32,064 nt of DNA from a virus. Positions within the stretch are counted from its first letter, which is position 1, and each line of letters opens with the position of its first letter. The translations under genes were made by a program, and so were the position numbers. Under the pieces are notes generated by a model. That model saw only the letters and a list, made by a program, of their open reading frames with translations. It made no database searches and was not told where the DNA came from. The stretch covers positions 1-32,064 of the IMG/VR virus record IMGVR_UViG_3300010375_000042; one strand, written 5' to 3'. Positions 1,459 to 30,735 of this stretch are shown in pieces.

Positions 1459-1701
1459 ATGGGCATCGGGCAATGGAAAATAGTTGATCTGGTTGGAACT
1501 AAGAACGGTAGTAATACAGTTTTTACAATTCCCGATGTGCCGGATTTGCAAACGCTGGCCGTCATATTCAATACCTCGGCGCTTTATAGAGTCGCGTCGG
1601 CGCCGACTATTCAGCAATACATGATTACCGGCTCGACTATCACGCTAGGACTAGCACCGAACAGTACGGACAAAGTTTGGGCGAACTATGACATTGCGTA
1701 G
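1459..1701 (+). CDS. Small fibre-base domain protein, paralogue of the upstream gene's N-terminal domain
   Basis: This 80-residue protein is a stand-alone copy of the domain at the start of the preceding gene. Both share TKNG.NTVFT, a VIFN segment, the YRV.SAP turn and STITLGLAPN or STVTLGLAPN, with similar spacing, so duplication is clear from the text. It has no signal peptide or membrane segment. It starts with zero spacing after the upstream TAA and has no clear ribosome site, so it is probably translated by coupling. Its 3' end overlaps the next gene by 14 bases. It may be an oligomerising or attachment module of the tail tip. No family name can be given. Confidence 0.7.
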   Translation: MGIGQWKIVDLVGTKNGSNTVFTIPDVPDLQTLAVIFNTSALYRVASAPTIQQYMITGSTITLGLAPNSTDKVWANYDIA

Positions 1702-2740
1702 GGTTGTACTTTTCATTTTCGTGTTACTCCTGCCGGCGCTAGCCGATGCACAGCTAATTCGCCGCGAGACAATTCAGCCGGGTATAGTTTTCTGTGATGA
1801 CGCCGGGGCGAACGATACTTATACTTGCCCAACGCCGACGCCGGCGCTCGCAGCCTATGACACCAAAATCCTGATCATCTTTAAGCCGAATACTAATAAT
1901 ACCGGCGCGGCGTCGCTCAACGTCAGCGGCTTGGGCGCAATTACTATTGTTGCGTTTGACGGCAGTACGCTTGCCAATAACGCTCTGGTTGCGGCGCAGC
2001 GTTATATCCTTGTCTACAACGGCACTAGCTTTGTTCTCTACAATCCCGGCACTGGCGGTACTGGATTGTCGGGGCTCACCGATGACTGCTTTCTAAAAGC
2101 CAACGGCACGACGGCGGCGGAATGCTCGGCTGCGTTTGATAACGGCGCAGGCACGTACAGCTATGGCACGGTGTCGGGCAACCGCTATGAGTTTAGTTAT
2201 ACCGCTCCAACGGCGGTGCGTTCGATTGTATGGGCAGATGAGTCAGGCACGCCGGCGCTGGCAAAAGTCAAAGCGGGTTGGGATGCCGACAGTATCGTTC
2301 AGGACGAGACGTTTTGCACGGTGCCGGTGACGGGACAAATTAACAGCGGTCCGCGCACACGCTGGTTTCTCTGCGCCGACAACAACAGTTCCTTATTTGA
2401 GGGCAAGATTGTCAATCTGCCCTATACGATCTCGACGGCCGCGATGACTCTCAAAGTTAATCACGGCACGACTGAGACAATTACTTTTGCCGGGGCTTTC
2501 TCAATTCAATGCCGCGCCGCAGGAACGACCGTCAACTCGATCTGGGGTACGGCGGTCAATGCCAACGTAGCGATTACGACGGCCAACCAGCCAGTGCAGG
2601 CAACTGCGAGCGGAATAATTCCGAACGGAACATGCAGTGCGGGTGCTACGCTTTTCTGGCGCTACGTGGTCAATGCGGCGAGTTTTTCGACCAACGCGGC
2701 CAACACGAGGATTATGGGTGTTTATTTGGCAGGCGAATGA
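1688..2740 (+). CDS. Exported fibre-like protein with Sec signal peptide
   Basis: The 350-residue product starts with a basic n-region (MTLRR), a hydrophobic core and a cleavage-like ALADAQ at about residues 18-23, a clear Sec signal. The mature part is rich in T, A, G and N, with repeated beta-strand patterns and paired cysteines, as in phage fibres and extracellular adhesins. No enzyme motif was recognised. The gene lies in a run of overlapping genes between the tail hub and the lysis region, which argues for a late, adsorption-related role. The signal ending LPALADAQ recurs exactly in the Fn3 protein at 6878, so this leader was probably copied or recombined. Confidence 0.65.
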   Translation: MTLRRVVLFIFVLLLPALADAQLIRRETIQPGIVFCDDAGANDTYTCPTPTPALAAYDTKILIIFKPNTNNTGAASLNVSGLGAITIVAFDGSTLANNALVAAQRYILVYNGTSFVLYNPGTGGTGLSGLTDDCFLKANGTTAAECSAAFDNGAGTYSYGTVSGNRYEFSYTAPTAVRSIVWADESGTPALAKVKAGWDADSIVQDETFCTVPVTGQINSGPRTRWFLCADNNSSLFEGKIVNLPYTISTAAMTLKVNHGTTETITFAGAFSIQCRAAGTTVNSIWGTAVNANVAITTANQPVQATASGIIPNGTCSAGATLFWRYVVNAASFSTNAANTRIMGVYLAGE

Positions 2741-3408
2741 AACAACTACTTCTCAGCCTGATCTTCTTTTGTATTAGTACACCGGCGGTCACATGGGCCG
2801 CGAACGGAAGCGACAACTTCACCGGCGATGATCCGGATCTCGGATCGCAGTGGGACCCGTACAACGATGCGACAGCCGGAGGTGCTTCTATGCCGTGCCG
2901 TCGCTACAGCAATACGGCGGCTAACTCATCCGCTACGGATCGGTGCGTTGAGGGCTTCAACGGTTATTTACCGGGCGCCAATCAATACGGGCAGTTTACG
3001 GTTGCGGCGATCGGTGCCAACAACACCGATGTCAGCGCGCTCCTGCGACTACAACCGCCGTTTGACTACTCGACATATCAATTCCGGCTACAGGGCACCG
3101 GCGGGACAACCTCTCGAATCGCGCGACGTGATGCAGGAGTAAACACCACGCTCGCCAGCGAGTCAGCAACGACGTGGGCGCCCGGTGATTTGCTTCGTGT
3201 CGAGGCGAGCGGAACCGGATTAACTCTCAAGCGAAACGGGGTGACATTGCTCACCACTACCGATGCGACTTACGTTAGCGGGCGCGGCGGTATCACTATC
3301 CTTGATGATCAATCTCCCCCGAGCGCTTTACTTGACGATGCTGAGTTCGGCGATTTGGGAACCGCCGGTGCGGCGCTGCGGCGAACTTCGCCGATGATGT
3401 TTCAATGA
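2737..3408 (+). CDS. Exported concanavalin A-like (LamG/jelly-roll) protein
   Basis: The ATG at 2737 overlaps the previous stop (ATGA) and begins a Sec signal, MKQLLLSLIFFCISTPAVTWA. A longer in-frame opening exists from 2509 but lies inside the upstream gene, so 2737 was chosen. The 223-residue protein reads as one jelly-roll lectin/glucanase-type fold: an opening DNFTGDD strand, an FRL segment near the middle, a GVTLLTTTDATYVSGRGGI block and a closing DDAEFGDL strand. Such domains bind sugars and are frequent in bacterial exported proteins and in fibres. No catalytic residues could be assigned. It sits in a gene string with ATGA overlaps at both ends, which suggests stoichiometric expression with its neighbours. 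Confidence 0.65.
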   Translation: MKQLLLSLIFFCISTPAVTWAANGSDNFTGDDPDLGSQWDPYNDATAGGASMPCRRYSNTAANSSATDRCVEGFNGYLPGANQYGQFTVAAIGANNTDVSALLRLQPPFDYSTYQFRLQGTGGTTSRIARRDAGVNTTLASESATTWAPGDLLRVEASGTGLTLKRNGVTLLTTTDATYVSGRGGITILDDQSPPSALLDDAEFGDLGTAGAALRRTSPMMFQ

Positions 3409-5135
3409 AAAAACTTTTTTTCCTGCTGATAATTCTTTGTGGCGCATTCTCGGCAGAGGCCGCAACGAGATACGTTGACCCGTCATCGGGCAGCTGTTCG
3501 GGCAACTATAACGTGAGCGCGCGAAACTGTACCGGCGGCGCAGGAAGCCCTACTGCATACGCGACACTCAACACCGGCGTCGCTTCACTCTCGGCGGGCG
3601 ACACGCTTATTTTGCGCCCAGCCACTTACAACTTCGCATCGAGCTACATGACGCTTGCGCTCCCGACAGGTAACGCCAGTAGCGTCACCATCATTACCGC
3701 ACTAAGCGGTGAAACCGTCACGATCACCGGCTATCCCTTCAACACGTTCAACGCCGCCGCGTCATACGTGACTATTTCGAACCTTATCTTTGACGGCACA
3801 GGGGCGAGCGGACAGCCCAACTGTTTCACGCCGATTGGCGGCGGGACCACTTGCCTAAATAACGGTCCGATCATTGGCAGTAATACCAACCACGGCACAA
3901 TCGACGCCAACATCACGCTCGACAATGTAGAAATAAGAAACTGGAACGGTATTGCTGTTCAGTTAGGCGGGCCGCAGGCGACCATCAAGAATAGCCGCGT
4001 GCACGATAACGGCACCGTCAGCAATGACAACTGCGTTTATGCATCCGACGGCGCGACCAATGCTATCATTGAATCCAATACCGTTTATAATTGTGCGGGC
4101 GCAGGTATCCAGGCATACGCAGGCGCCGACCCGGCTGGTCCGGCAACGATTCGGTTCAATACCATTCATCACGTTTCACAGAGTGAGCGTCACATCAACG
4201 GCTTCTATGTAGAGGACGGCGCCGTTGAAGATCGTATGGACGGCATCATTGTAGCATCGCGCTTTGATAACTCGAAAGTTTACGGGAACGTAATTTATTC
4301 CGTAAAGCGAAGTACTGGCAATCAGCAAGGCGGCATCGCTTTGGTTCTCAGTGTCAGCGGAGTGGCCGTTTATAATAATACACTATGGGACGTGAGCGGC
4401 GGTGGCGTTCTGCACAGCGGCGCAGGCTGCAACATATTCAGAAATAATATTGTCTACGAGCCAGCTTTTTCGACGCCAGCGATTGAAGATACTTCTGGTT
4501 GTAGCACGTTCAGCAATAACCTGACCGCATCTAATCCACTGTTCACTGATACATCCACTGCGAATTTCGTGCTTCTGCCTGGATCGCCAGCGATTGATAC
4601 GGGTACGCCAAATATTGCGCCAGGTATCGTGATTCCTGCTTGTTCTGGCGGAACGACGACCGGCTGCTATAACGGTACAGGGCCTGACATCGGCGCGCTA
4701 GAAAGCGGCGTTCCGACCGTTGCCGGAGGCCCGCCGACACTAAGGCCCAATCCGCCCACAGGAATCCGAGTCAGTCAGCTCATGTCCGTGACCGTCGAGG
4801 ATGACAAGGTGACTCAGCGAACTGAGAATACCGGCGATTATGTCGGGCTATATATTCCCGGTGCTCTCAGCACGGCATTTATCGACTGGTTCTACATGAA
4901 TGGCACGAAGGTGGCGCCATCATCGCCGATCAGTGACGCGATCCTGGCTTTTACCGCGCCTTCAGCGGTTGGCTCTTATGAGTTCAGGTTTTACCGCAAC
5001 AACTCAACTTCAGAAACCGATCGACTGGCAACTGTGGGATTTGTCACCGTCGCTCAAGGAATCATGGTCAAATACAACGGATCATCGATCATAAAAATGA
5101 ACGGCTCAAGCATCGTTAAGGTAGGTGTGCCGTGA
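3405..5135 (+). CDS. Exported right-handed beta-helix protein, choice-of-anchor Q type
   Basis: The 576-residue product has a Sec signal (MKKLFFLLIILCGAFSAEA), then ATRYVDPSSG, the usual opening of pectate-lyase-like parallel beta-helices. Residues about 60-400 show helix rungs rich in N, I, V and G. The text NPLFTD...SPAIDTG...DIGALESG near residues 385-445 is the choice-of-anchor Q signature of bacterial surface proteins. A separate Ig-like segment follows (about 450-550), then a tail with two copies of NGSSIIK/NGSSIVK. In phages such helices form tail spikes that bind or cut polysaccharide; no lyase or hydrolase residues are certain. A signal peptide on a spike-type protein is unusual. ATGA and GTGA overlaps join it to its neighbours. 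Confidence 0.75.
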   Translation: MKKLFFLLIILCGAFSAEAATRYVDPSSGSCSGNYNVSARNCTGGAGSPTAYATLNTGVASLSAGDTLILRPATYNFASSYMTLALPTGNASSVTIITALSGETVTITGYPFNTFNAAASYVTISNLIFDGTGASGQPNCFTPIGGGTTCLNNGPIIGSNTNHGTIDANITLDNVEIRNWNGIAVQLGGPQATIKNSRVHDNGTVSNDNCVYASDGATNAIIESNTVYNCAGAGIQAYAGADPAGPATIRFNTIHHVSQSERHINGFYVEDGAVEDRMDGIIVASRFDNSKVYGNVIYSVKRSTGNQQGGIALVLSVSGVAVYNNTLWDVSGGGVLHSGAGCNIFRNNIVYEPAFSTPAIEDTSGCSTFSNNLTASNPLFTDTSTANFVLLPGSPAIDTGTPNIAPGIVIPACSGGTTTGCYNGTGPDIGALESGVPTVAGGPPTLRPNPPTGIRVSQLMSVTVEDDKVTQRTENTGDYVGLYIPGALSTAFIDWFYMNGTKVAPSSPISDAILAFTAPSAVGSYEFRFYRNNSTSETDRLATVGFVTVAQGIMVKYNGSSIIKMNGSSIVKVGVP

Positions 5136-5404
5136 GAGAGTCGCTACCGACGATCGTTATGATGGCAATTGCGCTTTTATTAGCGCTCGTTGTCAGCAGG
5201 GTGAGTTTCGGCGCCGAGCCTGAGGACAAAGACTTAACTATCCTGCAACTCAAGAAATCAAATCTAGAGTTCGCAATGGAGAATATGGTGTTACAGAGCG
5301 AGGTATTGAAGCAGAAATACAAGGACGCTCAGGCAGAGTACGAGAAAGTCAAGACGGATTTGGATGCCAAAGAGAAAGAGACAAAGAATGATAAAAAGAA
5401 ATAG
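5132..5404 (+). CDS. Small signal-anchored coiled-coil protein
   Basis: A GTG start overlaps the upstream stop (GTGA). The 90-residue product has one hydrophobic segment at about residues 8-27 (IVMMAIALLLALVVSRVSFG), either a signal peptide or an N-terminal anchor. The rest is highly charged and strongly helical with coiled-coil heptads, ending in a lysine-rich tail. One anchor plus a periplasmic coiled coil is the shape of an inner-membrane spanin (Rz-like), but the gene sits among fibre genes rather than beside the lysozyme, so that is only a possibility. Its 3' end overlaps the next gene by 17 bases. Confidence 0.6.
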   Translation: MRESLPTIVMMAIALLLALVVSRVSFGAEPEDKDLTILQLKKSNLEFAMENMVLQSEVLKQKYKDAQAEYEKVKTDLDAKEKETKNDKKK

Positions 5405-6302
5405 TTTAATCGCGGTACTGATCGCATTGTGCGTAATTGCGCCGCGCGCGTTTGCATCAACCGGCTGTACCTATCCTACGACTCTGGATTCATGGACTGA
5501 CAAGATCGCTGGCGATTTCCTCACCATAGCCGACGTCAATCAATTTCGCTGCGCCATTGAGAAACTTGAAACGGGACCACTACGTCCTAACGATGGCAGC
5601 GCGGCTGCGCCGTCCTATGCATTCCGTGGATCGGTCAATACTGGAATGTTTCTTATAGGTGGTCCCGGTATAGGTTGGGCTACAGCTGGAGCAGAGCGCA
5701 TGCGGTTAAGTAATGCGGGCGCGCTATTGATAGCCAACTCCGCATCGACTGGCGTCAACGCTGGTGATGTCGTACTCAGCAATAACAGGAATGTTTTATG
5801 GGTCAATAACGCTGGAACAACTGCGGGTAATTTCTGGATCAAGACGGCTACTACTGACGCAATGTCATTTGGTACTAGCGGTGTCGAAGCGCTAAACATC
5901 GCGAGCAACGGAGCTATGCGGGTAGGCAATCAGGCAGCAACCGGAGTAGCGGCGAATTCTATCGTGCTGAAGAATACTGCGTCAATTCAGTGGGTAACGG
6001 CATCGGGGGCGACGGCGGCGGATTTAGTTATTCAAGCCACCGCTGGCAATCATATGTGGTTTAACGTGCCGGCCAGTGACGGGCAACTCTATCAATTTAA
6101 TTGGGGCGGTCAAACCCTATTCCAGATAACGAGGGAATTAGCGGGTGCAGGTTTAATATTTGCACTAGAGTCCACTACGGATCAATCACCGCCAGCGGCC
6201 AATCAGGCTGTTGTTTATACGAAGGATAACGGCTCAGGAAAGACTCAGCTTTGCGCAAGATTCAATACCGGCGCCGCGCAATGTTTCGCCACGCAACCAT
6301 AA
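5388..6302 (+). CDS. Exported trimeric-fibre-like protein
   Basis: The start chosen is ATG 5388, giving a Sec signal (MIKRNSLIAVLIALCVIAP, cleavage after AFA); an upstream in-frame start at 5364 would only add eight basic residues. The 304-residue protein resembles tail-fibre shafts: AERMRLSNAGALLIANS, a similar block near residues 175-200 (LNIASNGAMRVGNQA), and strands such as VLKNTASIQWV. These short repeated beta units with GAL/GAM turns are common in trimeric fibres. The C-terminus (KTQLCARFNTGAAQCFA) carries two cysteines. No enzymatic domain is visible. It overlaps the previous gene and abuts the next one (TAAATG). Confidence 0.65.
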   Translation: MIKRNSLIAVLIALCVIAPRAFASTGCTYPTTLDSWTDKIAGDFLTIADVNQFRCAIEKLETGPLRPNDGSAAAPSYAFRGSVNTGMFLIGGPGIGWATAGAERMRLSNAGALLIANSASTGVNAGDVVLSNNRNVLWVNNAGTTAGNFWIKTATTDAMSFGTSGVEALNIASNGAMRVGNQAATGVAANSIVLKNTASIQWVTASGATAADLVIQATAGNHMWFNVPASDGQLYQFNWGGQTLFQITRELAGAGLIFALESTTDQSPPAANQAVVYTKDNGSGKTQLCARFNTGAAQCFATQP

Positions 6303-6866
6303 ATGGGAAGTTCTGTTGTAATAGGGGCTGAAGGACCGACAACGCCGCTTGCTACGGTAGTGGCGCAGAACTTCGCTGCTGCAGCAGAGGATTATCTAAT
6401 CCGTTACCCGGATGTAAAGGCTGCTTATGGCGAGAACTATGCCGCCGCTCATTTGCATTACATCTCCAACGGGCAGAATGAAGGGCGAACCTGGAACCAA
6501 TCACAGACGCGGGTTATTTGGGGCTCTCCTGGCGATAAAGGAGCCGGTGGCACGGGTAATGGCATTAACTGTGTGAGGTTCCCCAATGGCGCCAAACTCG
6601 GCGCAATCAATTGGCAGAGTGCGGTCAAGGTCGGTAATAGCGATATTCTCTTCGTCCTGTATTTGCCTAATGGCCAGACTCTCTTGAATACGTTTCATCA
6701 TGGGGAATCTAACATCGTGCGCGGTATTAACTTACCGGAGCCGATTGACATTGAACCAGCAGGGACTATCTGGATCTGGGCCGATGGTTGGGGTGACGCG
6801 AGTCCGGGCGGGATAGAAGTACAAACCGGACTTTATTTTTACGGGAATCCGCCGTGGACAAACTGA
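6303..6866 (+). CDS. Fibre-associated protein with DYLIRYPDV-type repeat domain
   Basis: The ATG directly abuts the previous TAA. The 187-residue product has no signal peptide. Residues about 29-62 carry the pattern DYLIRYPDVKAAYG...HYISNGQNEGR, seen in many extracellular enzymes, calcium-binding repeat proteins and phage tail proteins. The C-terminal part is a compact beta-sandwich rich in W and G (WIWADGWGD). A ligand-binding or adsorption role fits the neighbourhood, but the exact function is unknown. It is the only gene between 1688 and 7495 lacking an export signal, so it may be the true virion component of this string. Confidence 0.6.
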   Translation: MGSSVVIGAEGPTTPLATVVAQNFAAAAEDYLIRYPDVKAAYGENYAAAHLHYISNGQNEGRTWNQSQTRVIWGSPGDKGAGGTGNGINCVRFPNGAKLGAINWQSAVKVGNSDILFVLYLPNGQTLLNTFHHGESNIVRGINLPEPIDIEPAGTIWIWADGWGDASPGGIEVQTGLYFYGNPPWTN

Positions 6867-6877
6867 AAGGGGCGACT

Positions 6878-7495
6878 ATGAGTGTACTTTTTCTGATTGC
6901 GGCGCTGCTTGCCTTGCCTGCACTAGCAGACGCACAGACGCACACATTCAAGCTTAACTGGACGTTGCCAGTAGTTGCCGCCGATGGCTCAAACGCTGCA
7001 ACGGGCATCAGGATAGAGCGCAAACAGGGCACAACCGGCGTCTATGCGCAGATTGCGCAGCTCGGCTTGGTGAATACTTATTCAGATCCGATTGGCAATC
7101 CGCCACCGGGCGGCGTTGTTTACTGTTACCGTCTACGCGCGTTCAATGTTGTTGGCAACTCGGCTTATACTACCGAGGGCTGTGGCACGACGGCGCCCGT
7201 AGTCGTGCCGGTAGCACCGGATGTGCCTACCGGGTTTAGCGTGTCAGCTATCTCGCAAAGCATGATTGAGCTCAGTTGGGGCAGCGTGGACACCGCGGAC
7301 GGTTACAAATGGGAGCGGCGCAAGGGCAATCAACCGAAGATCATCGAAGCTACCGGAACGGTATTGGCTACGGCAACGAACTTCCGAAACAGTAGTTTAC
7401 GAAGAGGCACGACTTACTGTTACGACATTTGGGCTTACAACCTGGGCGGGACATCGCAACAGTCGCCGATCTTGTGCGCAACCACGCGGCCATGA
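6878..7495 (+). CDS. Exported protein with two fibronectin type III domains
   Basis: The start chosen is ATG 6878 because GAAAGGGG lies just upstream; the in-frame GTG 6854 would add eight polar residues before the signal. The 205-residue product has a Sec signal (MSVLFLIAALLALPALADAQ) and then two Fn3 repeats, about residues 21-105 and 112-205. Each ends with a tyrosine-corner strand (VVYCYRLRAFNVVGNSAY; YCYDIWAYNLGGTSQQSP). Fn3 domains serve as spacers or carbohydrate and surface contacts in tail proteins and secreted enzymes. Its signal ends in the same LPALADAQ as the protein at 1688. It closes the exported adsorption block. Confidence 0.75.
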   Translation: MSVLFLIAALLALPALADAQTHTFKLNWTLPVVAADGSNAATGIRIERKQGTTGVYAQIAQLGLVNTYSDPIGNPPPGGVVYCYRLRAFNVVGNSAYTTEGCGTTAPVVVPVAPDVPTGFSVSAISQSMIELSWGSVDTADGYKWERRKGNQPKIIEATGTVLATATNFRNSSLRRGTTYCYDIWAYNLGGTSQQSPILCATTRP

Positions 7496-9167: not shown

Positions 9168-9335
9168 ATGACTATGAATAGAGTGTTTGTTTTAATTGCT
9201 GTGATTTGTTTTCTGCTCGCGTTTATCGGCTCAGCGGTTAGCCTGAACGGCGGGCATCCTTACGGGAGCATGAGTTGGGCTGATTTGGTTGCTCTCGGTT
9301 TGTTTTTCTGGGCCGCGGCAACCTTTGTTGTATAG
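9168..9335 (+). CDS. Tiny two-helix membrane protein, holin-like
   Basis: This 55-residue gene starts at ATG 9168 after an AGAGG site. It has one hydrophobic helix at residues 5-25 (RVFVLIAVICFLLAFIGSAV), a short loop with HPYGSMSW, and a second at about 40-55 (LVALGLFFWAAATFVV). This fold, with the phrase LVALGL followed by aromatic residues, recurs in short membrane proteins of many phages near lysis genes. It could be a holin, an antiholin or a lysis helper. It stops ten bases before the peptidase gene. Confidence 0.5.
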   Translation: MTMNRVFVLIAVICFLLAFIGSAVSLNGGHPYGSMSWADLVALGLFFWAAATFVV

Positions 9336-9345
9336 AAAGACAAAA

Positions 9346-10038
9346 ATGAAAACATCATCATTTGGGCGTCGTATATCCAAGGACGAGCGCGACAAACAAT
9401 ATTTGATGCGCAGGCTATTAGCGCCAGCTCGCGCTGTCTTGCCGACTAATAAAATGTGGAAGATTGCGGCGAAGAATTTAGATCAAGGCGATTACGGAAC
9501 ATGCGTCGGCAATGCGTGGACTAATTTTCTCCGTTGCGCGCCCATTCAGACAACCGCCGATGAATCGATGGCACTTACGATTTACGACGCAGCAATTTTG
9601 CTCGATGAGTGGACGGACAACGACAACGACACGGACCGTCAAATGGGTACGTCGGTACGCGGCGGCGCAATGGCCGTGACTAACATGGGCAAACTCAAAT
9701 CATATTTGTGGGCATTCGAGCTTCAACCTGCTGTTGAATGGGTGCTCACGATGGGTCCGGTTGTATTAGGAACTACGTGGTACTCAAGCATGATGAAGCC
9801 GGATGCACAGGGCATTGTACAAATAAAGCCAGGAGCGCGAGATTTAGGCGGCCATTGTTATCTGTGGCGTGGCGCCGATACTAAGAAGGCATTGGCTTAT
9901 TGTTGCAATTCTTGGGGCGATTCGTGGGGATTGAGCGGTAACTTTGCAATTCCATTTAAGGACGTTGAGACACTTATACATAATGACGGCGAATGCTGTA
10001 CGGCAATCCAAAAATCGTTGAAGGCGCTTTCGGTTTAG
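9346..10038 (+). CDS. Papain-like (C1A) cysteine peptidase
   Basis: The chosen ATG at 9346 gives 230 residues; an in-frame upstream opening from 9289 overlaps the previous gene and is unneeded. All papain-family active-site positions are present. Q47 and C53 lie in DQGDYGTCVGNAW (oxyanion glutamine and nucleophile), H170 in LGGHCYLW, and N188 in CCNSWGDSWG, the family's NSWG..WG signature. There is no signal peptide or pro-region of eukaryotic length. A complete C1A peptidase in a phage lysis region is uncommon. Likely targets are peptide crosslinks, a virion protein to be processed, or a host protein; sequence cannot separate these. Confidence 0.8.
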   Translation: MKTSSFGRRISKDERDKQYLMRRLLAPARAVLPTNKMWKIAAKNLDQGDYGTCVGNAWTNFLRCAPIQTTADESMALTIYDAAILLDEWTDNDNDTDRQMGTSVRGGAMAVTNMGKLKSYLWAFELQPAVEWVLTMGPVVLGTTWYSSMMKPDAQGIVQIKPGARDLGGHCYLWRGADTKKALAYCCNSWGDSWGLSGNFAIPFKDVETLIHNDGECCTAIQKSLKALSV

Positions 10039-11202: not shown

Positions 11203-11396
11203 GCGACGTTCAGACTCAAGAAGAGTTGCAGGAGAATTTGAGACTTGTGATCCGCAACTGGACACTGCGTCAGAAATACGAAGCGCTAAAATATTTGTAT
11301 GCTCTGCTTAACGTCAAAATAGATGACCTCCCCGCGCGCATAGCTCGTGAGCATAAAGCCGAGGTCGCCCAAGGAAAGCCAGGATCGCATGAATAA
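11199..11396 (+). CDS. Small helical protein, unknown
   Basis: The ATG overlaps the DUF1353 stop (ATGA). The 65-residue product is charged and helical (QEELQENLRLVIRNW; YEALKYLYALLNVK), with no cysteines or membrane segment. It precedes a lipoprotein gene with an eight-base overlap. Position in the lysis operon is its only functional clue. Confidence 0.6.
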   Translation: MSDVQTQEELQENLRLVIRNWTLRQKYEALKYLYALLNVKIDDLPARIAREHKAEVAQGKPGSHE

Positions 11397-11730
11397 ACCG
11401 GAATCGATGTTCTGGATAACCGCCGCGCTCTTGCTTGCGTTGTTCTTGTCGTCGGGTTGTGGCGCGGCGTACTTTTCAGCTAGGACTACAGCCACATATT
11501 CTATTCTTCCAGATGGCACACTTCAGGCCAGTTACGACAGCAGTAAAGATCAACAGGGTCTTGATTTGGACGTCGAAGCCGATAACGGCAAAATCAAGGT
11601 GGTGCGGATTCATGCCGATCGTGCGGGTACCAATGAGAGCGCCATTGCGGCGGCGCTGCAAGCCAACCTGAAATTGATCGGGCTTATAGAAACGCTCAGT
11701 GCAATCGCAGCTAAAGGCGGCGGATCATAA
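11389..11730 (+). CDS. Putative lipoprotein (spanin candidate)
   Basis: ATG 11389 gives a 113-residue protein with a hydrophobic segment (FWITAALLLALFLSSG) followed by a cysteine at about residue 24, a lipobox-like LSSGC. The rest is short and soluble, with strands (TATYSILPDGTLQASYD) and an alanine-rich helix near the end. A lipoprotein two genes after the endolysin is where an outer-membrane spanin would be expected in a phage of a Gram-negative host. It lacks the proline richness of Rz1, so the spanin role is a suggestion only. Its frame opens at 11347 inside the previous gene, so the start rests on the signal. Confidence 0.6.
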   Translation: MNKPESMFWITAALLLALFLSSGCGAAYFSARTTATYSILPDGTLQASYDSSKDQQGLDLDVEADNGKIKVVRIHADRAGTNESAIAAALQANLKLIGLIETLSAIAAKGGGS

Positions 11731-11890: not shown

Positions 11891-11967
11891 AGCGGTTATG
11901 GTACATGATTGTCATAAAAACCGTGCAACTTTATAATAGATTGCTGCGACGAAAGATCATGCCATGA
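11887..11967 (+). CDS. Possible 26-residue basic peptide
   Basis: A GTG overlaps the previous stop (GTGA) and the frame ends in an ATGA overlap with the secreted HNH gene. This double 4-base coupling matches the style of the operon and is the main reason to list it. The product is basic with a hydrophobic first half (LWYMIVIKTVQLYNRLLRRK) and may lie at the membrane. It is too short for homology judgement. Confidence 0.4.
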   Translation: MKRLWYMIVIKTVQLYNRLLRRKIMP

Positions 11968-12257
11968 TTGAAGCCATTTTTATAATCTTGCTTTTCTTTG
12001 CTTCGTTTGCCGAGGCTCGCGATTCAGCGCAGGTGAGGGCATTTAGAAAAGCCAATCCTTGCCCAAGCACCAGCAAGACTATCGGGGCTTGTCCAAATTA
12101 TGTAGTGGATCACATTGTGCCGCTCTGTTGGGGCGGCGCTGATCGTCCTAGCAATATGGCATGGGAAGAAACGAAAGCGAGTTATAAAAAAGACAAGTTT
12201 GAACGTGAGGCGTGTGCCATGAAGAATAAACAGGTTGTACCGAGTCAACTCAAATGA
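11964..12257 (+). CDS. Exported HNH nuclease-like protein
   Basis: The 97-residue protein starts with a signal peptide (IEAIFIILLFFASFAEA) and is followed by the secreted HNH pattern NPCPSTSKTIGACPNYVVDH at residues 31-50, then PLCWGG..RPSNM. D49/H50 and N64 fit the HNH active site; the final histidine is not obvious, so activity is uncertain. Similar short periplasmic HNH proteins occur in Proteobacteria. In a phage it could degrade incoming or host-released DNA in the periplasm, or protect against superinfection; this is inference. ATGA overlaps tie it to both neighbours. Confidence 0.75.
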   Translation: MIEAIFIILLFFASFAEARDSAQVRAFRKANPCPSTSKTIGACPNYVVDHIVPLCWGGADRPSNMAWEETKASYKKDKFEREACAMKNKQVVPSQLK

Positions 12258-13696
12258 CTACCGCCAACGATTATTTCAAAGGCTACGCGCCCAAGGTTAC
12301 GGTTGGCCAGGGCAATCCTGAGACAATCAAGTATGGCAAGATCTGGAACATCCCAGAGTACAGAAAGTATGCACCGGGCGAGTTTTACAGCCAATTGTTT
12401 TTGACGCACGCGAAGCCAAGGCCCGGCGCTCATGTCATTGATTACGGCTGCGGCACCGGTCGCGGCGGGGTAATGCTCGCAAGTCTCGGCAAGCTTAAAG
12501 TCACGATGCTCGATTTCGTCAATAATTGCCTTGATGAAGATGTAAGAAATCTCATCATGAGCTCGGGCGGGCAACTCACCTTTATCAAGGCGGATTTGGA
12601 AAAGCGCATCCCGGTTGTGGCCGAGTATGGTTTTACCTCAGATGTGATGGAGCACATCCCGCCGGACAAGCTTGATCTTGTCCTGGATAACATCCTTCAG
12701 TCGGCGCAAACGGTATGGTTTACCATCGCCACATTCGAGGACAGTTTCGGAGAAACGATCGGTGAGCATCTTCACTTATCGGTGCACCCGTTTGAGTGGT
12801 GGAAGGAGCAATTCGAGAAGCGCGACTGTGAGATTTACTACTCGCAGAACCAGGACAATTATTATGCGCATTTCTATGTGCGCGCGTGGCGAAGCGGTCA
12901 GGAAGTTGTTGACGCCGGGCGGCTCAATACCGAGGAAAAAGCGATCATCGAGAACGTCAAGCATAACATCGCTCAGGGCTGGCAGCAGGTAGTGCCGCAC
13001 GAGACAAACGAATTTGAATGCATGATTCTGGGCGGCGGGCCGTCGCTCAATCAGTTCGAGGAAGAGATCATACGAAACCGCGCCGATGGTGTGAAGTGTA
13101 TTACCCTAAACGGAGCATATAATTGGGCGGTGCACCACGGAATCACGCCGTCGGCGCAGATCGTAGTAGATGCGCGTCAGTTCAATGCGCGGTTCACTAA
13201 GCCGGTAGTGGATGACTGCCGGTATTTGATCGCGTCACAATGCCATCCCGACGTGTTTAAGGACTTGCCGAAAGACCGGACTTTCATCTGGCATACGATG
13301 GCCGAGCAGTTGGGCGAAGTACTCGATGAACAATACGGCGCTGGTGGGTGGTACGGCATACCGGGCGGTACGACAGTGCTCCTGCGGGCCATCCCGCTGA
13401 TGCGGATGCTCGGCTATCACAAGTTTATTCTATACGGGTGCGACTCTTGTCTAATGGGCGATTCGCATCATGCTTATGAGCAGAACGAGAACGCGAATTT
13501 TTATAGCTTGCCTGTGATTATCAATCCAAGCGGACGGACGTTTCGCTGCGCGCCGTTTATGGCGTCACAGGCGCATGAGTTTATAGACATGATCAAGTAC
13601 ATCGGCGACGAGATTGAGCTTGACGTTAAGGGTGACGGGTTGCTCGCGCATATACTAGAAGTGGGCGCGGAGCAGGCGGATTTGCAACAATTATGA
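12254..13696 (+). CDS. Class I SAM methyltransferase fused to DUF115 (MptE-like) domain
   Basis: The 480-residue product has two parts. Residues about 55-215 are a Rossmann methyltransferase with motif I VIDYGCGTGRG (residues 61-71), the acidic strand MLDFV, and a later TSDVMEHIPPDKLDLVL segment as in small-molecule methyltransferases. Residues about 255-450 start with ECMILGGGPSLNQFEEEI and include ITLNGAYNWAVHHGI and VVDARQFNARF, the pattern of DUF115, a family related to 6-hydroxymethylpterin diphosphokinase MptE and found near glycan genes. The fusion suggests modification of a sugar or glycan, perhaps on the cell surface or the virion. No membrane segment is seen. Coupled by ATGA at both ends. 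Confidence 0.75.
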   Translation: MTTANDYFKGYAPKVTVGQGNPETIKYGKIWNIPEYRKYAPGEFYSQLFLTHAKPRPGAHVIDYGCGTGRGGVMLASLGKLKVTMLDFVNNCLDEDVRNLIMSSGGQLTFIKADLEKRIPVVAEYGFTSDVMEHIPPDKLDLVLDNILQSAQTVWFTIATFEDSFGETIGEHLHLSVHPFEWWKEQFEKRDCEIYYSQNQDNYYAHFYVRAWRSGQEVVDAGRLNTEEKAIIENVKHNIAQGWQQVVPHETNEFECMILGGGPSLNQFEEEIIRNRADGVKCITLNGAYNWAVHHGITPSAQIVVDARQFNARFTKPVVDDCRYLIASQCHPDVFKDLPKDRTFIWHTMAEQLGEVLDEQYGAGGWYGIPGGTTVLLRAIPLMRMLGYHKFILYGCDSCLMGDSHHAYEQNENANFYSLPVIINPSGRTFRCAPFMASQAHEFIDMIKYIGDEIELDVKGDGLLAHILEVGAEQADLQQL

Positions 13697-14933: not shown

Positions 14934-15428
14934 ATGGCCGCTGGAACCTGGAAGATTTTTTCAAAAGCGAAACGGATTATCGGAGCTGGTGGGTCAGCAA
15001 TGACCTCCGGTGGCATTACGCTCGGTGTAGGTGTGTTTAAAATGAGTTTACACAGGGCGTCGGCCAGCGCTAATTTACTCCTAAACGCAATCGGCGGCAT
15101 CAGCACGTTTGCCTCAGTCCCCGGTGAGATCAGTCCGCTCGGCGGCTATGCGGCAGGCGGTAGAAACCTGCTACCGGCAACCGGCACCTGGACAACCGGC
15201 GCAAGCACCAAGCAATTAAAGTTCACTTACTCCACGGTTGGCCTGATCTTCACGGCTAGCGGCGCATCACTGAAGAACATCAAGTACGCCGTGATCCGTA
15301 CATCGAGCGGCGCAGGCGCTGGCAAGGTGCTTTGCTTCTGCACGCTGAGTACTGCGGCGTTCAGTATCACCAGTCCCAATACGCTCACTATCTTGCCGGC
15401 TGCGACTGGGGTCTTCACCTTAGCTTGA
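14934..15428 (+). CDS. Phage structural-type protein, probably virion-associated
   Basis: The 164-residue product (AAGTWKIFSKAKRIIGAGG..., VFKMSLHRASASANLL, GGYAAGGRNLLPATGTW, SPNTLTILPAATGVFTLA) belongs to a group of glycine- and alanine-rich proteins that I recall from many uncultured and soil phages, encoded with tail or decoration proteins. It is beta-rich with no signal peptide, enzyme motif or zinc site. The perfect AAGGAG ribosome site, locked in a hairpin, suggests high but controlled expression. A head decoration or tail-fibre role is possible; the exact one is unknown. Confidence 0.6.
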   Translation: MAAGTWKIFSKAKRIIGAGGSAMTSGGITLGVGVFKMSLHRASASANLLLNAIGGISTFASVPGEISPLGGYAAGGRNLLPATGTWTTGASTKQLKFTYSTVGLIFTASGASLKNIKYAVIRTSSGAGAGKVLCFCTLSTAAFSITSPNTLTILPAATGVFTLA

Positions 15429-15437
15429 GCAGCTTAG

Positions 15438-17213
15438 GTGAATCGTAGGGATTTCCTCAAGGCTGGGGCATTGGCTGCTATGTCGGCGGCTGCAAAGCCG
15501 TCCGGCGGCATAGCTCTCACTGGTCCTACTGAAACAGGGATCTGTGCCGGTGAGTCGGTACCGCTCACTTATAGCCTGACAAAGGGTCCGGGACAATCGC
15601 TGTCCACCACGTTCTCGGTTTCCGGCTTGCCGCCTGGAATAACCGGGACATTCTCGCCGACATCGTGTAAGCCTAACTGCGGAACGACGCTTACGTTGAG
15701 AGCAGCGTCTAATTATGTCCTTGGTGATTATAGTTTTATTGTCAGGGCGCAGAACTCAAAGGGTATTGCAATGGCGAACACAAATATTAAACCGCGCTGC
15801 GCTATTGCAGTAAAACCGCCGCCGTCAAATCTAGTCGGCTATTTTGTGTCGACTAGCGGCAACGACGCCAACGACGGATCGATCGGTGCTCCGTGGGCGC
15901 ATTGTCCGGGAATGGCGGCATGGACAGGATCGGCTAGCCTTGTATCAGGCGATACGGTTTATTTTAACAACTCTGATACGTTCGCTCCTGCCGGTACCGA
16001 TCAGCTTTTACAAACCACGACCGCCGGGGTTACTTACGACGGTGCGACATGGGGCGGCGGCACGCGGGCCGTGTTTCAGGCGCAGGCGGATTACGTCAAC
16101 AACACGGTCATCCTGGTCTACCACAGCAACACGATAATCAGGGGCATCGACATTGACGGTAATGCCAAAAACACCTGCGGTATTACAGTCAACTGGCCGT
16201 CTGCCGCTGCCAGTATCTCCAATATCGAACTAAACAACTGCATTGTAAGAAGCACAGGACACAGTGACGTTTTTCGCTACGGCATTATTGTTGGCGCGAC
16301 CGGCGGATTCACGACCACCAATCCAACTGTGACAAACTGCACGGTTCACGACGTGCTGCACGAGGGGATCTGTCTTTATCCCAGCGATACGCCGGGAACA
16401 AACCGGGTCGTCAACGCGACCGTTACTAACAACACGGTTTACAATACGGGCGGGCAGGCCGCTGACTTTGGCGTTGGACTTCTGATTAAGAATTATACAA
16501 CCGGCGCAACCATCGAGGGAAATAATTTTCACAACAATTTTCACGGCATCCAGTTTGAAAATGCCAATGCATCATCCAATCCACAGACGGGCATTATCAT
16601 CCGCCGAAACAAGATTTTCGATAATCTGCACTGGGGCATTTATATTCTGGGGCAAGGGCGCTCTATTACCTCGGATATTTACGACAATCTGATTTACGAC
16701 AACGGCAAGGCGGGGCAGGTCGAAGGCGGGCCGATATTCTTTACAACCGGGGATCACGCAGCGGGAGTATGGAATATCCTCAATAACACTATCTATTCAG
16801 TCAACGTCGGCGCCACTTCGCAATACGGGGTCATCAATTCCGGCTCTGCCACCGGGACTCCAACGATCACGGTTAAAAACAATATCATTTACACCGTCAA
16901 CGAGATTGCCATCGACGATCGAAAGAACTGGTTCACTCACAGCAATAACCTGGCATTCAGGACTTCCGGGGCGGCGGCGAACGTGGCTTATAACGGGACT
17001 ACCAACTACACGCGCACCACGTATACGACCTATGAGCCGACCGGCATTAGTGCTGACCCGTTATTTGTGAATGCGTTTGCCGATTTTCATCTGCTTGTGG
17101 CCTCGCCCGCCATCGATGCCGGCGCAACTCTTTCGGAAGTCACGACCGATTACGATGGAACCGCTAGGCCACAGGGGGCAGCCTATGACATCGGGGCATA
17201 TGAGTTCAGTTAG
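15438..17213 (+). CDS. Right-handed beta-helix protein with Tat signal
   Basis: The GTG start opens MNRRDFLKAGALAAMSAAA, a near-perfect twin-arginine (RRxFLK) signal; an internal ATG at codon 15 would remove it and has a poor ribosome site. Residues about 30-120 are an Ig-like domain (SLSTTFSVSGLPPGITGTFSP). From about 135 (GYFVSTSGNDANDG) the protein is a parallel beta-helix with rungs such as NNTVYNTGG and IEGNNFHNNFHG. It ends in the choice-of-anchor Q signature (SPAIDAGA...YDIGAYEF), as does the Sec protein at 3405. A Tat-exported beta-helix is normal for a bacterium and very rare for a phage. A surface polysaccharide-binding or degrading role is likely. Confidence 0.78.
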   Translation: MNRRDFLKAGALAAMSAAAKPSGGIALTGPTETGICAGESVPLTYSLTKGPGQSLSTTFSVSGLPPGITGTFSPTSCKPNCGTTLTLRAASNYVLGDYSFIVRAQNSKGIAMANTNIKPRCAIAVKPPPSNLVGYFVSTSGNDANDGSIGAPWAHCPGMAAWTGSASLVSGDTVYFNNSDTFAPAGTDQLLQTTTAGVTYDGATWGGGTRAVFQAQADYVNNTVILVYHSNTIIRGIDIDGNAKNTCGITVNWPSAAASISNIELNNCIVRSTGHSDVFRYGIIVGATGGFTTTNPTVTNCTVHDVLHEGICLYPSDTPGTNRVVNATVTNNTVYNTGGQAADFGVGLLIKNYTTGATIEGNNFHNNFHGIQFENANASSNPQTGIIIRRNKIFDNLHWGIYILGQGRSITSDIYDNLIYDNGKAGQVEGGPIFFTTGDHAAGVWNILNNTIYSVNVGATSQYGVINSGSATGTPTITVKNNIIYTVNEIAIDDRKNWFTHSNNLAFRTSGAAANVAYNGTTNYTRTTYTTYEPTGISADPLFVNAFADFHLLVASPAIDAGATLSEVTTDYDGTARPQGAAYDIGAYEFS

Positions 17214-17223
17214 GATTTAACTA

Positions 17224-17961
17224 ATGGCCCTTACCGACAACTTAGTAGCATATTGGGATTTGTCCGAAGCAAGCGGTACGCGAGCGGATGGGTTAGGATC
17301 AAACAATCTTACCGATAACAACACCGTCACGGGAACCACCGGACCCGGCTCGCATAACGCTTCGCTGTTCACCCACGCCAATAATGAATCGCTGAGTCAT
17401 ACCGACAACGCTACCCTCAGCATGGGCGACATAGACTTCACGGCCTGCGTCTGGATAAAGTTCACTACACTTATTTTGTACACCAACATATTCGGCCAAT
17501 GGAATTCCTCCACTAACCAACGATCTTGGACTGTTTACTACGACGACAACACGTTTCTGACATTTGGGGCTTCAAGCAATGGTACAATCGAGACATTTTT
17601 GAGCAATAATAACACAGGGGCAATAACTACGGGAGTCTGGTATTTCGTTGTTGTATGGCATGACTCAGTTGGAAATACCATGAACTTTCAAGTAAACGAG
17701 GGCACGGTTAAGTCGGCCAGTTATACTACAGGCGTATTCGATTCCAGCGCTGTATTTAATTTCGGAGTCCACGACGGTAATACTAACTACCAAGACGGCG
17801 CGATGGCCATGGCTGGGCTTTGGAAGCGCATCTTGACGGCGGGCGAAAGGACAACGCTTTTCAATAGCAACAATGCGCTTAACTATGCTGAGATTTTAGC
17901 CCTAGCAGGCGATCCCGTCGGTTCAATCCGTCCACGCACAACCGTTTCCATAGTCCCGTAA
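17224..17961 (+). CDS. LamG-like / concanavalin A-like lectin domain protein
   Basis: The 245-residue protein opens LVAYWDLSEASGTRADGLG, the standard start of a LamG/jelly-roll domain, and continues with DFTACVWIKF, WTVYYDDNTFLTFG, WYFVVVWHDSVGNTMNFQVN and the closing AMAGLWKRILTAGERTTLFN. This one domain covers nearly the whole length. LamG domains bind glycans or proteins; in phage tail genes they usually bind the cell surface. No signal peptide is present, unlike the jelly-roll protein at 2737. It lies between the Tat beta-helix gene and the giant repeat gene with short gaps. Confidence 0.8.
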   Translation: MALTDNLVAYWDLSEASGTRADGLGSNNLTDNNTVTGTTGPGSHNASLFTHANNESLSHTDNATLSMGDIDFTACVWIKFTTLILYTNIFGQWNSSTNQRSWTVYYDDNTFLTFGASSNGTIETFLSNNNTGAITTGVWYFVVVWHDSVGNTMNFQVNEGTVKSASYTTGVFDSSAVFNFGVHDGNTNYQDGAMAMAGLWKRILTAGERTTLFNSNNALNYAEILALAGDPVGSIRPRTTVSIVP

Positions 17962-17962
17962 A

Positions 17963-20900
17963 ATGGCCGTCACGATCGGGCAGGCTGGCTTCAGGCTGAG
18001 AAACGACGATGGCAGCGAAACCACCGCCACGTGGAAGGGTGCGCAAAATACCAACACAGTCATCAATGTTGATACAAATTTCCGCTGTCGTTTTCTCATG
18101 CAGAACAGCGGCACGACGGCGAGTAACAATGTCACCGCACAGCTCGAATATTCTCTCAACGGCGGCGCTTATACCAACGTCACCGCGTCCAGCACAGTAG
18201 TTCGCTCCTTCGCTTCTCCCAACGTCACCGACGCAGCAAACATTACCCAGCAGTTGACCGGTGGTACAGGCACGTTTATTGGCCTTACCGGCTATGACGA
18301 AGTGGACGGCGCGGCCGGTGGTAACTCGCTCGATGTTCCTGCCAGCGGCAACTTCGAGGTTGAATATTGCATTCAGCTTCGCGGCGTCGATCTAAACAAC
18401 GGCGATCAGGTTCAACTAAAAGTCACTAATAGCGGGACGGACTTTACCGGCACCTACGCTCAAATCCCGTCGATTATTGTCGCCGAGTCGGTAAGCAAGA
18501 CGCCGCTGGTAGGCGCGTTGACTCTTGTCGGCGTATCACCGGGCATTATCAATCCTGTCAAAATCACACCAAGCGCCGGCATCCTGCGCTTTGGCTTGCA
18601 GTCCTACGCGATCAAGCCGGACGTTGGCGATGTTGACATAACCGGAGTTGCGGCGGTTATAGGCAGTGGCGTAAGTCCAGTTATCATCACACCGAATTCA
18701 GGATCGTTGACGCTCATCGGGTATGCGCCGATCGACATCGTATCATTCAACATCACGCCGATTATTGGAGCAGTTTCTTTTGTTCTAATCGCAGGCAGTA
18801 CGCGCACAGACTTTATCCGCGGTCCTCCGGTAGCAGCGCTTGCTCTCACCGGGATCGCTCCTACTCTTCGTACCGCATTTAGCATCACACCATCCGTCGG
18901 AACACTCACCGCAACCGGCAATCTAGCAACAGTACAAAGCGGCGCAAATATCGCCGTCACTCCGTCCGTCGGCGCGCTCACTTTATCAAGCGTTGCTCCG
19001 ACAGTCACCGCAACTAACAATCAATCCCGCACACCTACCGTAGGGACTCTGACTCTCACGGGAGTCGCGCCCACGGTGATAGCAGGTGCCGGAATAAACA
19101 TCACGCCGTCTCCCGGTATTTTGCGCTTTGGCCTTCAGTCCTACGGAATCACTCCGGGCATAGGATCAGTTGCCATAACCGGACAGGCTGCGCAAATCGG
19201 CGCGGCGGCAAGTGTCTCAATCACTCCTGCGCGCGGCTCTCTGACACTAGCGGGCAATGCTCCGTCATTGTCGTTGACAACGGCAATCACGCCCGTAACC
19301 GGTACGCTTACATTCGGGACGTTCTTTCAGGAAATCACAGCCGATTCAGGGGGGCTAGCGATTACCGGCAATGCTTCTACAGTTCAGACCGGCGCTAATG
19401 TCTCGCGAACCCCGACGACAGGAACTCTTGCGCTTTCCAGCGTTGGCCCAACGCTCAAGACAGATACGCGAATCACACCAGCCGTCGGAGCATTGGTTCT
19501 TGCCGGTGCCGCGCCAACCGATATTGCCGGGACGCTCCTTACCCCTATTGTTGGTTCGCTTGCTCTAACCGGAATTGCACCGACTCGAATTCAAAACAAT
19601 ATTGAATCGCCGTCTGCTGGTTCTCTGACGATTGCAGGCAATGCGCCGAATATCTCTCGAAGTATTACCCCAAATGTCGCCTCTCTCGTTATCGCGGGAC
19701 TACAACCGATAGTCCAAGCCGGAGCTGGCGTAAATACTCAACCGGGAACCGGGGCACTGACTCTTGCTGGCGCTCAGCCAACCGTTCAATCAACCGCGAA
19801 TCTGGTAATCACGCCGAGTGCCGGGGCTTTGGTTCTAACCGGTGTCACGCCTAACAACAATCGCGCGGTTATCGTAGCTGTTGGCTCGCTTGCCCTGAGC
19901 GGAATACAGCCAATCGTCCAGGCGGGCGCAAGTCTCTCAAGGACTCCAAACGCTGGCAGTCTAGTTTTTACCGGCAATCAACCGACTGTTAATCAGACTG
20001 CTGGCGTAGTTTTGACGCCGTCAGTGGGCACTTTGGTAGCCGCGGGAGTGGCGCCGACCGTTCAGACAACCACTAACGTTGTTCGAACACCTATTACCGG
20101 AGCTCTGGCAGGTACCGGACTGCAACCCACCGTCCAAAGCGGTGCCAACCGCGTCGTAATTCCTACCACTGGGGCTCTCACGTTGGCCGGTACGCAACCC
20201 GTAGTGCAGGCCGGGGCAAATGTGAGCATAACGCCGCAAAGTGGCGCGTTGGGCCTCACAGGCGCAAATTCGGGCGTTTCCAGGAGCATTAGTCCTACGG
20301 TTGGGAGTCTAGTCCTTGCCGGTAATGCGCCGAATATCTCCGGCAGCATTACCCCGACTGTTGGCGCTCTGTCCTTAACTGGCGTTCAGCCAACCGTACA
20401 GACAACCGGGCACGTAATTCTGACGCCGAGCTCCGGAGCGCTGACACTAACCGGTGGCCAGCCGAGAACCGGTGGCCAGATCATTCCCAACGTTGGCACG
20501 CTGACAATCACCGGCAATTCTCCGGTCATCAAGCAAGTCATTACGCCCGCAACCGGCTCGATGACGTTTAGCAGTGACGCGCCGACCGATGTAGCGGGAA
20601 CTCTTCGAACACCGCTTGTCGGCGCTCTCACATTAACGCCGGTCCTTGCGACGCGAGTAATCGACAATCCCGAATCGCCGCAAACCGGTAGTTTGTCACT
20701 TTCCGGACAAGCACCGCGGCTGGATTTCAAGGTCATTCCCGCTACCGGCGCACTGGCGCTGCAGAGCGATCCGCCGCAAGCCGGACTATCTATCAGTACC
20801 CGTCCAACGGTAGGCGCGCTGACAATAGCTGGTACTCAGGCCGGACGGCTGCAAAACTCCGTCAGAGAGTCACAGGCTGGGGCGCTGACTTTTACCGGAG

Positions 20901-21187
20901 GCCAGCCACAGATACCGATAAGAATCACGCCGTCAACCGGCGCTCTGATCATTGTTGAAGGTGATGCACCGGGTAAGGCGTTCGCCGCACCGGCTTTTCT
21001 CGTCAATACCGGATCTCTGAATTTCAGCAGTGATGCGCCGACTTTCAGTTATACAAGCTTTGCTGATTTAGGATTTGCTACGCTAAGCGATCGCGCGGCA
21101 AACACGGCCACAGTAACCGACCAGGCAACCGGGAGCGCAACCGTAAGCGATACAGCGCTAGGCAAGGCAACTGTAAGCGATATTTAG
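17963..21187 (+). CDS. Giant repetitive fibre-like protein, about 39 short repeats
   Basis: The 1074-residue protein has a unique N-terminal beta domain (about 1-175), then about 39 repeats by eye, each about 20-24 residues, with the core TPxxGxLxLxG followed by xAPTVxxxxN. Examples are TPTVGTLTLTGVAPTV and TPSSGALTLTGGQP. A larger unit with GILRFGLQSY occurs twice, eight repeats apart, showing block duplication. The C-terminus changes to four short ATVSD-like repeats. There are almost no cysteines and no signal peptide. This pattern suggests a long stiff beta-solenoid or extended fibre. It is the largest gene here and probably a side or tip fibre; repeat number may vary between relatives. 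Confidence 0.75.
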   Translation: MAVTIGQAGFRLRNDDGSETTATWKGAQNTNTVINVDTNFRCRFLMQNSGTTASNNVTAQLEYSLNGGAYTNVTASSTVVRSFASPNVTDAANITQQLTGGTGTFIGLTGYDEVDGAAGGNSLDVPASGNFEVEYCIQLRGVDLNNGDQVQLKVTNSGTDFTGTYAQIPSIIVAESVSKTPLVGALTLVGVSPGIINPVKITPSAGILRFGLQSYAIKPDVGDVDITGVAAVIGSGVSPVIITPNSGSLTLIGYAPIDIVSFNITPIIGAVSFVLIAGSTRTDFIRGPPVAALALTGIAPTLRTAFSITPSVGTLTATGNLATVQSGANIAVTPSVGALTLSSVAPTVTATNNQSRTPTVGTLTLTGVAPTVIAGAGINITPSPGILRFGLQSYGITPGIGSVAITGQAAQIGAAASVSITPARGSLTLAGNAPSLSLTTAITPVTGTLTFGTFFQEITADSGGLAITGNASTVQTGANVSRTPTTGTLALSSVGPTLKTDTRITPAVGALVLAGAAPTDIAGTLLTPIVGSLALTGIAPTRIQNNIESPSAGSLTIAGNAPNISRSITPNVASLVIAGLQPIVQAGAGVNTQPGTGALTLAGAQPTVQSTANLVITPSAGALVLTGVTPNNNRAVIVAVGSLALSGIQPIVQAGASLSRTPNAGSLVFTGNQPTVNQTAGVVLTPSVGTLVAAGVAPTVQTTTNVVRTPITGALAGTGLQPTVQSGANRVVIPTTGALTLAGTQPVVQAGANVSITPQSGALGLTGANSGVSRSISPTVGSLVLAGNAPNISGSITPTVGALSLTGVQPTVQTTGHVILTPSSGALTLTGGQPRTGGQIIPNVGTLTITGNSPVIKQVITPATGSMTFSSDAPTDVAGTLRTPLVGALTLTPVLATRVIDNPESPQTGSLSLSGQAPRLDFKVIPATGALALQSDPPQAGLSISTRPTVGALTIAGTQAGRLQNSVRESQAGALTFTGGQPQIPIRITPSTGALIIVEGDAPGKAFAAPAFLVNTGSLNFSSDAPTFSYTSFADLGFATLSDRAANTATVTDQATGSATVSDTALGKATVSDI

Positions 21188-21199
21188 GAGGGCTTATTT

Positions 21200-21490
21200 A
21201 TGGCCAACGTCTATGATATAGGCGATATTGTTAGAGTTTCAGTTGAGTTCAAAAACATAGCCGGCACGCTCACCGATCCGACAACCGTCACTCTCAAATA
21301 TAGAGATCCGTCAGGCGTACTTACGCCGTGGGCAGTCATTGCAGGACAAATCGTCAAGGATGGCGTTGGCCTGTATCACGCCGACATCAGTCCGACGGTG
21401 GCGGGTATTTGGAGCTATAGATTTGTCGGTGTCGGCACATTGCAAGCAGCAGAGGAAGGGACGTTTTTAGTCAAGCCCGAGCTGTCATAA
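21200..21490 (+). CDS. Ig-like phage protein
   Basis: A strong AGGAGGG site precedes the ATG. The 96-residue product reads VYDIGDIVRVSVEF... GTLTDPTTVTLKYRDPSG... GLYHADISPTVAGIWSYRFVG... EEGTFLVKPEL, a pattern I know from many tailed phages as a small Ig-like or beta-sandwich tail-associated protein. It probably decorates the virion or assists fibre attachment. It is the last gene of the rightward late block; the next gene converges on it ten bases away and no terminator is visible between them. Confidence 0.75.
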   Translation: MANVYDIGDIVRVSVEFKNIAGTLTDPTTVTLKYRDPSGVLTPWAVIAGQIVKDGVGLYHADISPTVAGIWSYRFVGVGTLQAAEEGTFLVKPELS

Positions 21491-30534: not shown

Positions 30535-30735
30535 ATGAGACAGACTCTAGGCAAGAAGAAGATCGCATTTTATAAGAAAAAGACAGGACTTCCCGTTGTC
30601 GGTGGCATGGTGCGTGGCGATACCGACCATCGTGTCGATCTTCTGTTAGAAGACGGTCTTGTGGCATGGCTTTACAAGAATGGCGAGATAGAGATCGACT
30701 CAAGACTACGTTGGACAAGTAAAAATAAAGAATGA
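30535..30735 (+). CDS. Small basic protein, unknown
   Basis: AGGAG precedes the ATG. The 66-residue product is basic (RQTLGKKKIAFYKKKTG) followed by strands (HRVDLLLEDGLVAWLYKNGEIEIDSRL). It has no zinc or membrane features. Its stop overlaps the next ATG. The small beta domain could be an SH3-like nucleic-acid-binding fold, which is only a guess. Confidence 0.55.
   Translation: MRQTLGKKKIAFYKKKTGLPVVGGMVRGDTDHRVDLLLEDGLVAWLYKNGEIEIDSRLRWTSKNKE

Follow-up and report, generated by a model that had tools for sequence, protein, structure and literature searches.

Predicted export of fibre-type proteins encoded between the tail and lysis genes of a siphophage

The cytoplasm is where phage tail proteins are assumed to fold and assemble. 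What, then, should be made of a siphophage operon between the tail hub and the lysis region, in which most genes begin with apparent export signals? We considered this question in a 32,064-nt virus record, IMGVR_UViG_3300010375_000042 (hereafter the window), which holds the tail end, the lysis region and early genes. The complementary part lies on a near-identical sister contig (G002, 99-100% at both window ends), where PHROG assignments give HNH, terminase, portal, HK97-type capsid, tape measure and Dit genes. The relatives are few: this sister contig and two further phages that carry the exported-type genes as a module (G001 and G003).

The operon and its N-termini

Eight genes, rather than the seven counted in the initial annotation, lie between the hub and the lysis region. 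Short overlaps or near-zero gaps chain them together, and several starts overlap the upstream stops as ATGA.

211-1458, + strand: tail hub (name from the initial annotation), directly downstream of Dit in sister contigs; anchors the operon; no signal
1459-1701, + strand: no signal; 80-aa tail-type protein, copying the hub N-terminal domain found in relatives
1688-2740, + strand: predicted exported fibre-type protein; signal peptide, phage-fibre ASLNV module, C-terminal domain in common with G003; 8 cysteines
2737-3408, + strand: predicted exported protein similar to virion structural family phrog_2804; signal peptide; 2 cysteines
3405-5135, + strand: predicted exported right-handed beta-helix protein; signal peptide; 10 cysteines
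5132-5404, + strand: small coiled coil, membrane-anchored or exported; weakly spanin-like
5388-6302, + strand: predicted exported tail-fibre homologue; signal peptide, then phage-fibre modules; 4 cysteines
6303-6866, + strand: operon gene with no signal peptide
6878-7495, + strand: predicted exported Fn3-domain protein; signal peptide; 4 cysteines

The 80-aa protein is 57-64% identical to the hub N-terminus (L002:9755-11254), i.e., a duplicated domain that has become a free-standing gene.

Signal peptides were scored with a home-made von Heijne-type method rather than SignalP; it does separate the controls. On this scale, eleven established signal peptides from E. coli-type proteins fall between 12 and 19, and lambda Lom, which is genuinely exported, reaches 7.8. 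Among 308 genes of lambda, T7, P22, RR1-B and Mvi-Yong1342, five reach a score of 6, none of them a recognised tail structural gene. The starts at 1688, 2737, 3405, 5132, 5388 and 6878 score 6.6, 14.1, 9.8, 11.4, 8.8 and 8.9, respectively. Each of the six combines a hydrophobic core with an AXA-type cleavage region, and the n-region is positive in most of them (net charge is zero at 5132). Six of eight operon genes against 5/308 controls gives a binomial P of ~5e-10 if genes are treated as independent, and the export-like N-termini first noted in the initial annotation are thus borne out. It is very probable that the operon proteins are exported to the periplasm.

The 5132 product may be an exception. 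Tested as an Rz-type i-spanin (N-terminal anchor plus periplasmic coiled coil), it gives a weak match to phrog_739 (E 0.006), and it may be an anchored coiled coil of spanin type instead of being secreted. As for the folds originally assigned, the beta-helix (Pfam, 4e-12) and Fn3 (9e-7) labels hold, and the trimer-fibre label of 5388 derives from homology to phage fibre proteins. The jelly-roll of 1688 is narrowed to the C-terminal part: the model is poor overall (48.4) and usable only in its last ~120 residues, which appear jelly-roll-like at low confidence.

Exported-type genes also occur elsewhere in the window; for the HNH nuclease, loci in other phages are listed as well.

30732-31370, + strand: predicted exported protein with no family match; Sec signal; homologue inside the module in G001 and G003; 2 cysteines
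11964-12257, + strand: HNH nuclease whose N-terminus is signal-like; G001 has it within the module, G003 immediately after
L042:28280-28558 (- strand), L002:14887-15171 and L027:9572-9841: other signal-bearing HNH loci
11389-11730, + strand: predicted lipoprotein; has homologues alongside the module (G003) or downstream of it (G001)
15438-17213, + strand: beta-helix-type protein with a putative twin-arginine (Tat) type signal, MNRRDFLKAGALAAMSAAA

The model of the 30732 protein is better (pLDDT 79.5) and gave no convincing PDB match, the best VIA-align Z being 5.0 over the first ~75 residues. At least four environmental phages, one of them a Manatee Spring podovirus, encode the small HNH nuclease with its N-terminal signal-like segment, which is possibly a periplasmic nuclease acting against incoming DNA. 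On the sister contig, a 142-aa protein with a signal peptide and four mature cysteines is encoded directly after the major capsid gene (L033:10071-10499, - strand); no counterpart was seen in G001.

The 15438 protein belongs to a second fibre-like locus (14934-21490), whose genes mostly have no signal. It starts VNRRDFLKAGALAAMSAAA, a putative Tat-type signal that is unusual in a phage protein; an RRxFLK-type motif is present, and PF10518 (TAT_signal) matches with E 0.003 and 18.0 bits, under the curated cut-off of 22.7. Also in this locus, 17963-21187 encodes 1074 aa of degenerate ~40-residue repeats (ITPSVGxLxLxGxxPT...), for which Pfam and PHROG gave no match and of which G001 has a shorter version (603 aa). 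Two further genes can be described. One in the lysis region (9289-10038) has no signal peptide and resembles papain-like (C1) peptidases below the curated cut-off, and the other (12254-13696, 480 aa) is methyltransferase-like in its first half, with a 57% counterpart in G001 and a partial match (36%) in a Manatee Spring siphophage.

Conservation of signals and cysteines in relatives

G001 (44 kb) is a siphophage with the same terminase-to-hub order as the window and G002. Its hub is followed by homologues at 19953 (78%), 20997 (39%) and 21650 (43%), the HNH nuclease, a 5132-like protein, the 30732 homologue (59%) and homologues at 24618 (39%) and 25456 (47%). Exported proteins of G001 and the window are thus 39-78% identical, and signal-like N-termini are kept in all of the listed G001 proteins, the 5132-like one being a longer anchor. 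The cleavage motifs ADAQ|L and AEA|AT are retained; signal-peptidase-type sites persist even though the remainder of the signal segment drifts.

G003 (52 kb), picked up via a motif of the 30732 family, is a podovirus-like phage. Its portal and capsid are different (phrog_1216 and phrog_371), and blast matches none of its genes to the virion genes of the window, G001 or G002; some early genes are also common to G003 and the window. It nevertheless carries, in one block, a 1688-like fibre, homologues of 30732, 2737 and 3405, two small Fn3-like proteins, the lipoprotein and the HNH nuclease. Some of its signal scores are weak (1688-like, 3.0, start uncertain; 3405-like, 4.3; HNH, negative), but hydrophobic segments can readily be seen by eye. 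The survey of related phages therefore favours export: signals are kept in G001, which has the same gene order, and in G003, which has no detectable virion gene in common, despite protein divergence to 26-78% identity. The sequences suggest that the module moved between unrelated virion types, or stayed while virion genes were replaced, and that the exported proteins are not tied to one tail type. The 30732 family is not always exported, since a homologue in a further genome (G004) seemingly has no signal.

Cysteines give evidence that is independent of the signals. Even counts occur in 21 of 22 cysteine-bearing exported proteins, which are not independent of one another, versus 53 of 80 other genes with two or more cysteines (Fisher p 0.006). 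Mature-protein counts are 8, 2, 10, 4, 4, 4 and 2 in the window, 6, 2, 10, 4, 0, 2 and 6 in G001, 14, 2, 2, 22, 2, 2 and 4 in G003, and 4 in the G002 protein; the sole odd count is that of the Tat-type protein, with nine. Between relatives, counts shift in steps of two. For example, C134 and C146 of the 1688 protein are both missing in G001, and the window's cysteine pair in 30732 is missing in G001, with G003 holding a different pair. The four C-terminal cysteines of 1688 are invariant across the window, G001 and G003. As far as sequences can tell, the steps of two are the trace left by disulfides, although in the HNH protein the four cysteines may rather be metal ligands. Because counts are even and pairs are gained and lost together, real export is supported, and we infer disulfide-bonded folding in the oxidising periplasm.

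The initial annotation had proposed an exported set made during infection or lysogeny. The first part gains weight because two other phages conserve the signals and because the cysteines pair; lysogeny is not indicated, as no integrase was recognised in the window's ORF list. Receptor masking or superinfection exclusion, which it named among the possible roles, stays plausible.

Origin of the fibre modules and known parallels

Microcystis phage protein XAN61289 aligns with residues 51-120 of 5388 (39%, E 7e-12), its own copy of the stretch beginning at residue 32. Without its 23-residue signal, 5388 would start approximately where this ordinary fibre starts. Likewise, 1688 includes a stretch ~50% identical to the fibre of Rhizobium phage RR1-B, so both proteins have tail-fibre homology. 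Across XAN61289, cyanophage genes and the RR1-B fibre, the homologous modules are ~32-52% identical over 50-105 residues, but these ordinary fibres have neither the signal peptide nor comparable cysteine pairs. Signal and cysteines were therefore apparently added to ordinary phage fibre modules in 1688 and 5388. Homologues lacking the N-terminal segment, which the initial annotation would have taken as evidence against export, thus exist among more distant ordinary fibres and possibly as the G004 homologue of 30732, and not in phages with the full module. Its suggestion that the proteins were recruited from host secreted proteins does not suit 1688 and 5388; at best it fits the beta-helix and Fn3 proteins, which could equally be of bacterial origin.

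Searches for a prophage or host origin yielded little. A pattern scan of genome contigs gave chance matches only, and one marginal match to the fibre N-region (E 1e-3) fell in a bacterial locus of the sampled genomes whose ORFs show no fibre protein. No 30732 homologue was found in ~400 Pseudomonadota and ~400 Bacteroidota sampled genomes, a search with no positive control that excludes little. The phage database held no match for the hub, 30732 or the G003 fibre, and patterns for a wider class of cysteine-bearing fibres matched only the known relative and unrelated genes.

Single phage-encoded proteins exported from infected cells have precedents, whereas we found no description of exported tail-fibre sets in the open-access literature. 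T5 Llp is an outer-membrane superinfection exclusion lipoprotein that blocks the receptor from the periplasmic side and prevents progeny loss on debris, and exclusion proteins are described as expressed early (PMC9586334). Llp is thus a precedent for receptor blocking, but it is one small lipoprotein, described among early exclusion proteins, while the window has several predicted secreted fibre-type proteins in an apparently late operon. Lambda Lom is also exported, and its gene lies immediately downstream of the one for the central tail fibre, but it is annotated as a single outer-membrane protein, not a fibre, beta-helix and Fn3 set.

What the predicted exported proteins may do

The reading we favour, with a probability of about 0.4, is that the infected cell exports a fibre- and lectin-type module which masks receptors or surface glycans. 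A Gram-negative cell would send these proteins out via Sec, and one further protein via Tat. The signal peptides would be cut off and the proteins would fold with disulfide bonds, the set deriving at least partly from ordinary tail-fibre modules with signal peptides added. Expression late in infection is probable, because the genes sit between tail and lysis genes; cleavage, timing and the Gram-negative host are points that we infer. Inside the envelope or at the surface, the proteins would occupy the phage's own receptors or surface glycans, thereby blocking the adsorption of competing phages and keeping released progeny off debris, with the signal-bearing HNH nuclease and the lipoprotein assisting.

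Masking is favoured because the set has binding-type folds (beta-helix, Fn3 and, in a low-confidence model, a jelly-roll-like C-terminus close to tailspikes and carbohydrate-binding modules), is accompanied by the nuclease and the lipoprotein, and is independent of virion type. As a function it is still a guess, and several points count against it. Tail-fibre genes are often swapped between unrelated virions, so sharing of the module is compatible with a virion role. The best-conserved part of 5388 is its N-terminal fibre region, as expected of a docking domain, with the remainder variable. To block a receptor and nothing else, five or more proteins seem too many, and the operon looks late, versus the early exclusion proteins of the T5 paper.

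The main rival to masking, which we consider doubtful, is that the exported fibres acquire their disulfide-bonded fold in the periplasm and are added to the exterior of completed virions once lysis brings the two compartments together. The genes lie directly after the hub, the usual tail-fibre site, they retain phage-fibre modules, and 5388 resembles a docking part joined to a binding part. The place directly after the major capsid gene, where G002 has its signal-bearing protein, is the usual one for a decoration protein; that such a protein, along with the fibres, is exported, disulfide-bonded and joined to virions only at lysis is unlikely. Against assembly from two compartments, G003 has the module but no detectably shared virion gene to dock on, the window has its second, mostly signal-less fibre-like locus, and we know of no tailed phage that builds virion parts via the periplasm.

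It is improbable that the proteins are host-directed adhesins altering the infected cell's adhesion, matrix or neighbour binding, comparable to the MAT proteins of Bdellovibrio, which are exported and phage-fibre-like. The likeness is in the build: MAT proteins have a signal peptide, a conserved ~130-aa domain shared by all, and phage-fibre-like trimeric modules with varied binding tips, 13/21 ending in an S74 chaperone and 8/21 not (PMC10769870). The low-confidence 1688 model also matches Bdellovibrio Bd1399, alongside phage tailspikes and carbohydrate-binding modules. However, MAT proteins are bacterium-encoded, and our comparison is with their published description. The Pfam scan found no S74 in the proteins it covered (as 8/21 MATs also have none), temperate genes were not recognised in the window, and a late operon leaves little time to benefit the host.

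Quite improbable is the view that the hydrophobic N-termini are uncleaved anchors or assembly elements of ordinary cytoplasmic virion proteins. It suits the tail operon position and the tight coupling of starts to upstream stops, but not the conserved signal-peptidase-type sites in a drifting segment, nor even, co-varying cysteines, which are not expected in a reducing cytoplasm; moreover, the homologues with no signal are the ordinary fibres. Finally, misplaced starts or a phage contig fused to host DNA are very improbable, for although these are single metagenomic contigs scored with a home-made predictor, and the start of a G003 827-aa protein is uncertain, conserved gene order already contradicts an artefact, as do the presence of the set on three separate contigs and in two virion types, the ATGA overlaps, and the contiguity of hub, 80-aa gene and module in both siphophages.

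If export is real, this conserved, transferable operon would encode disulfide-stabilised exported fibre proteins. It would amount to a device of several phage proteins on the infected cell's surface or, alternatively, to virion assembly in a second compartment. The proteins themselves would be naturally secretable glycan binders.
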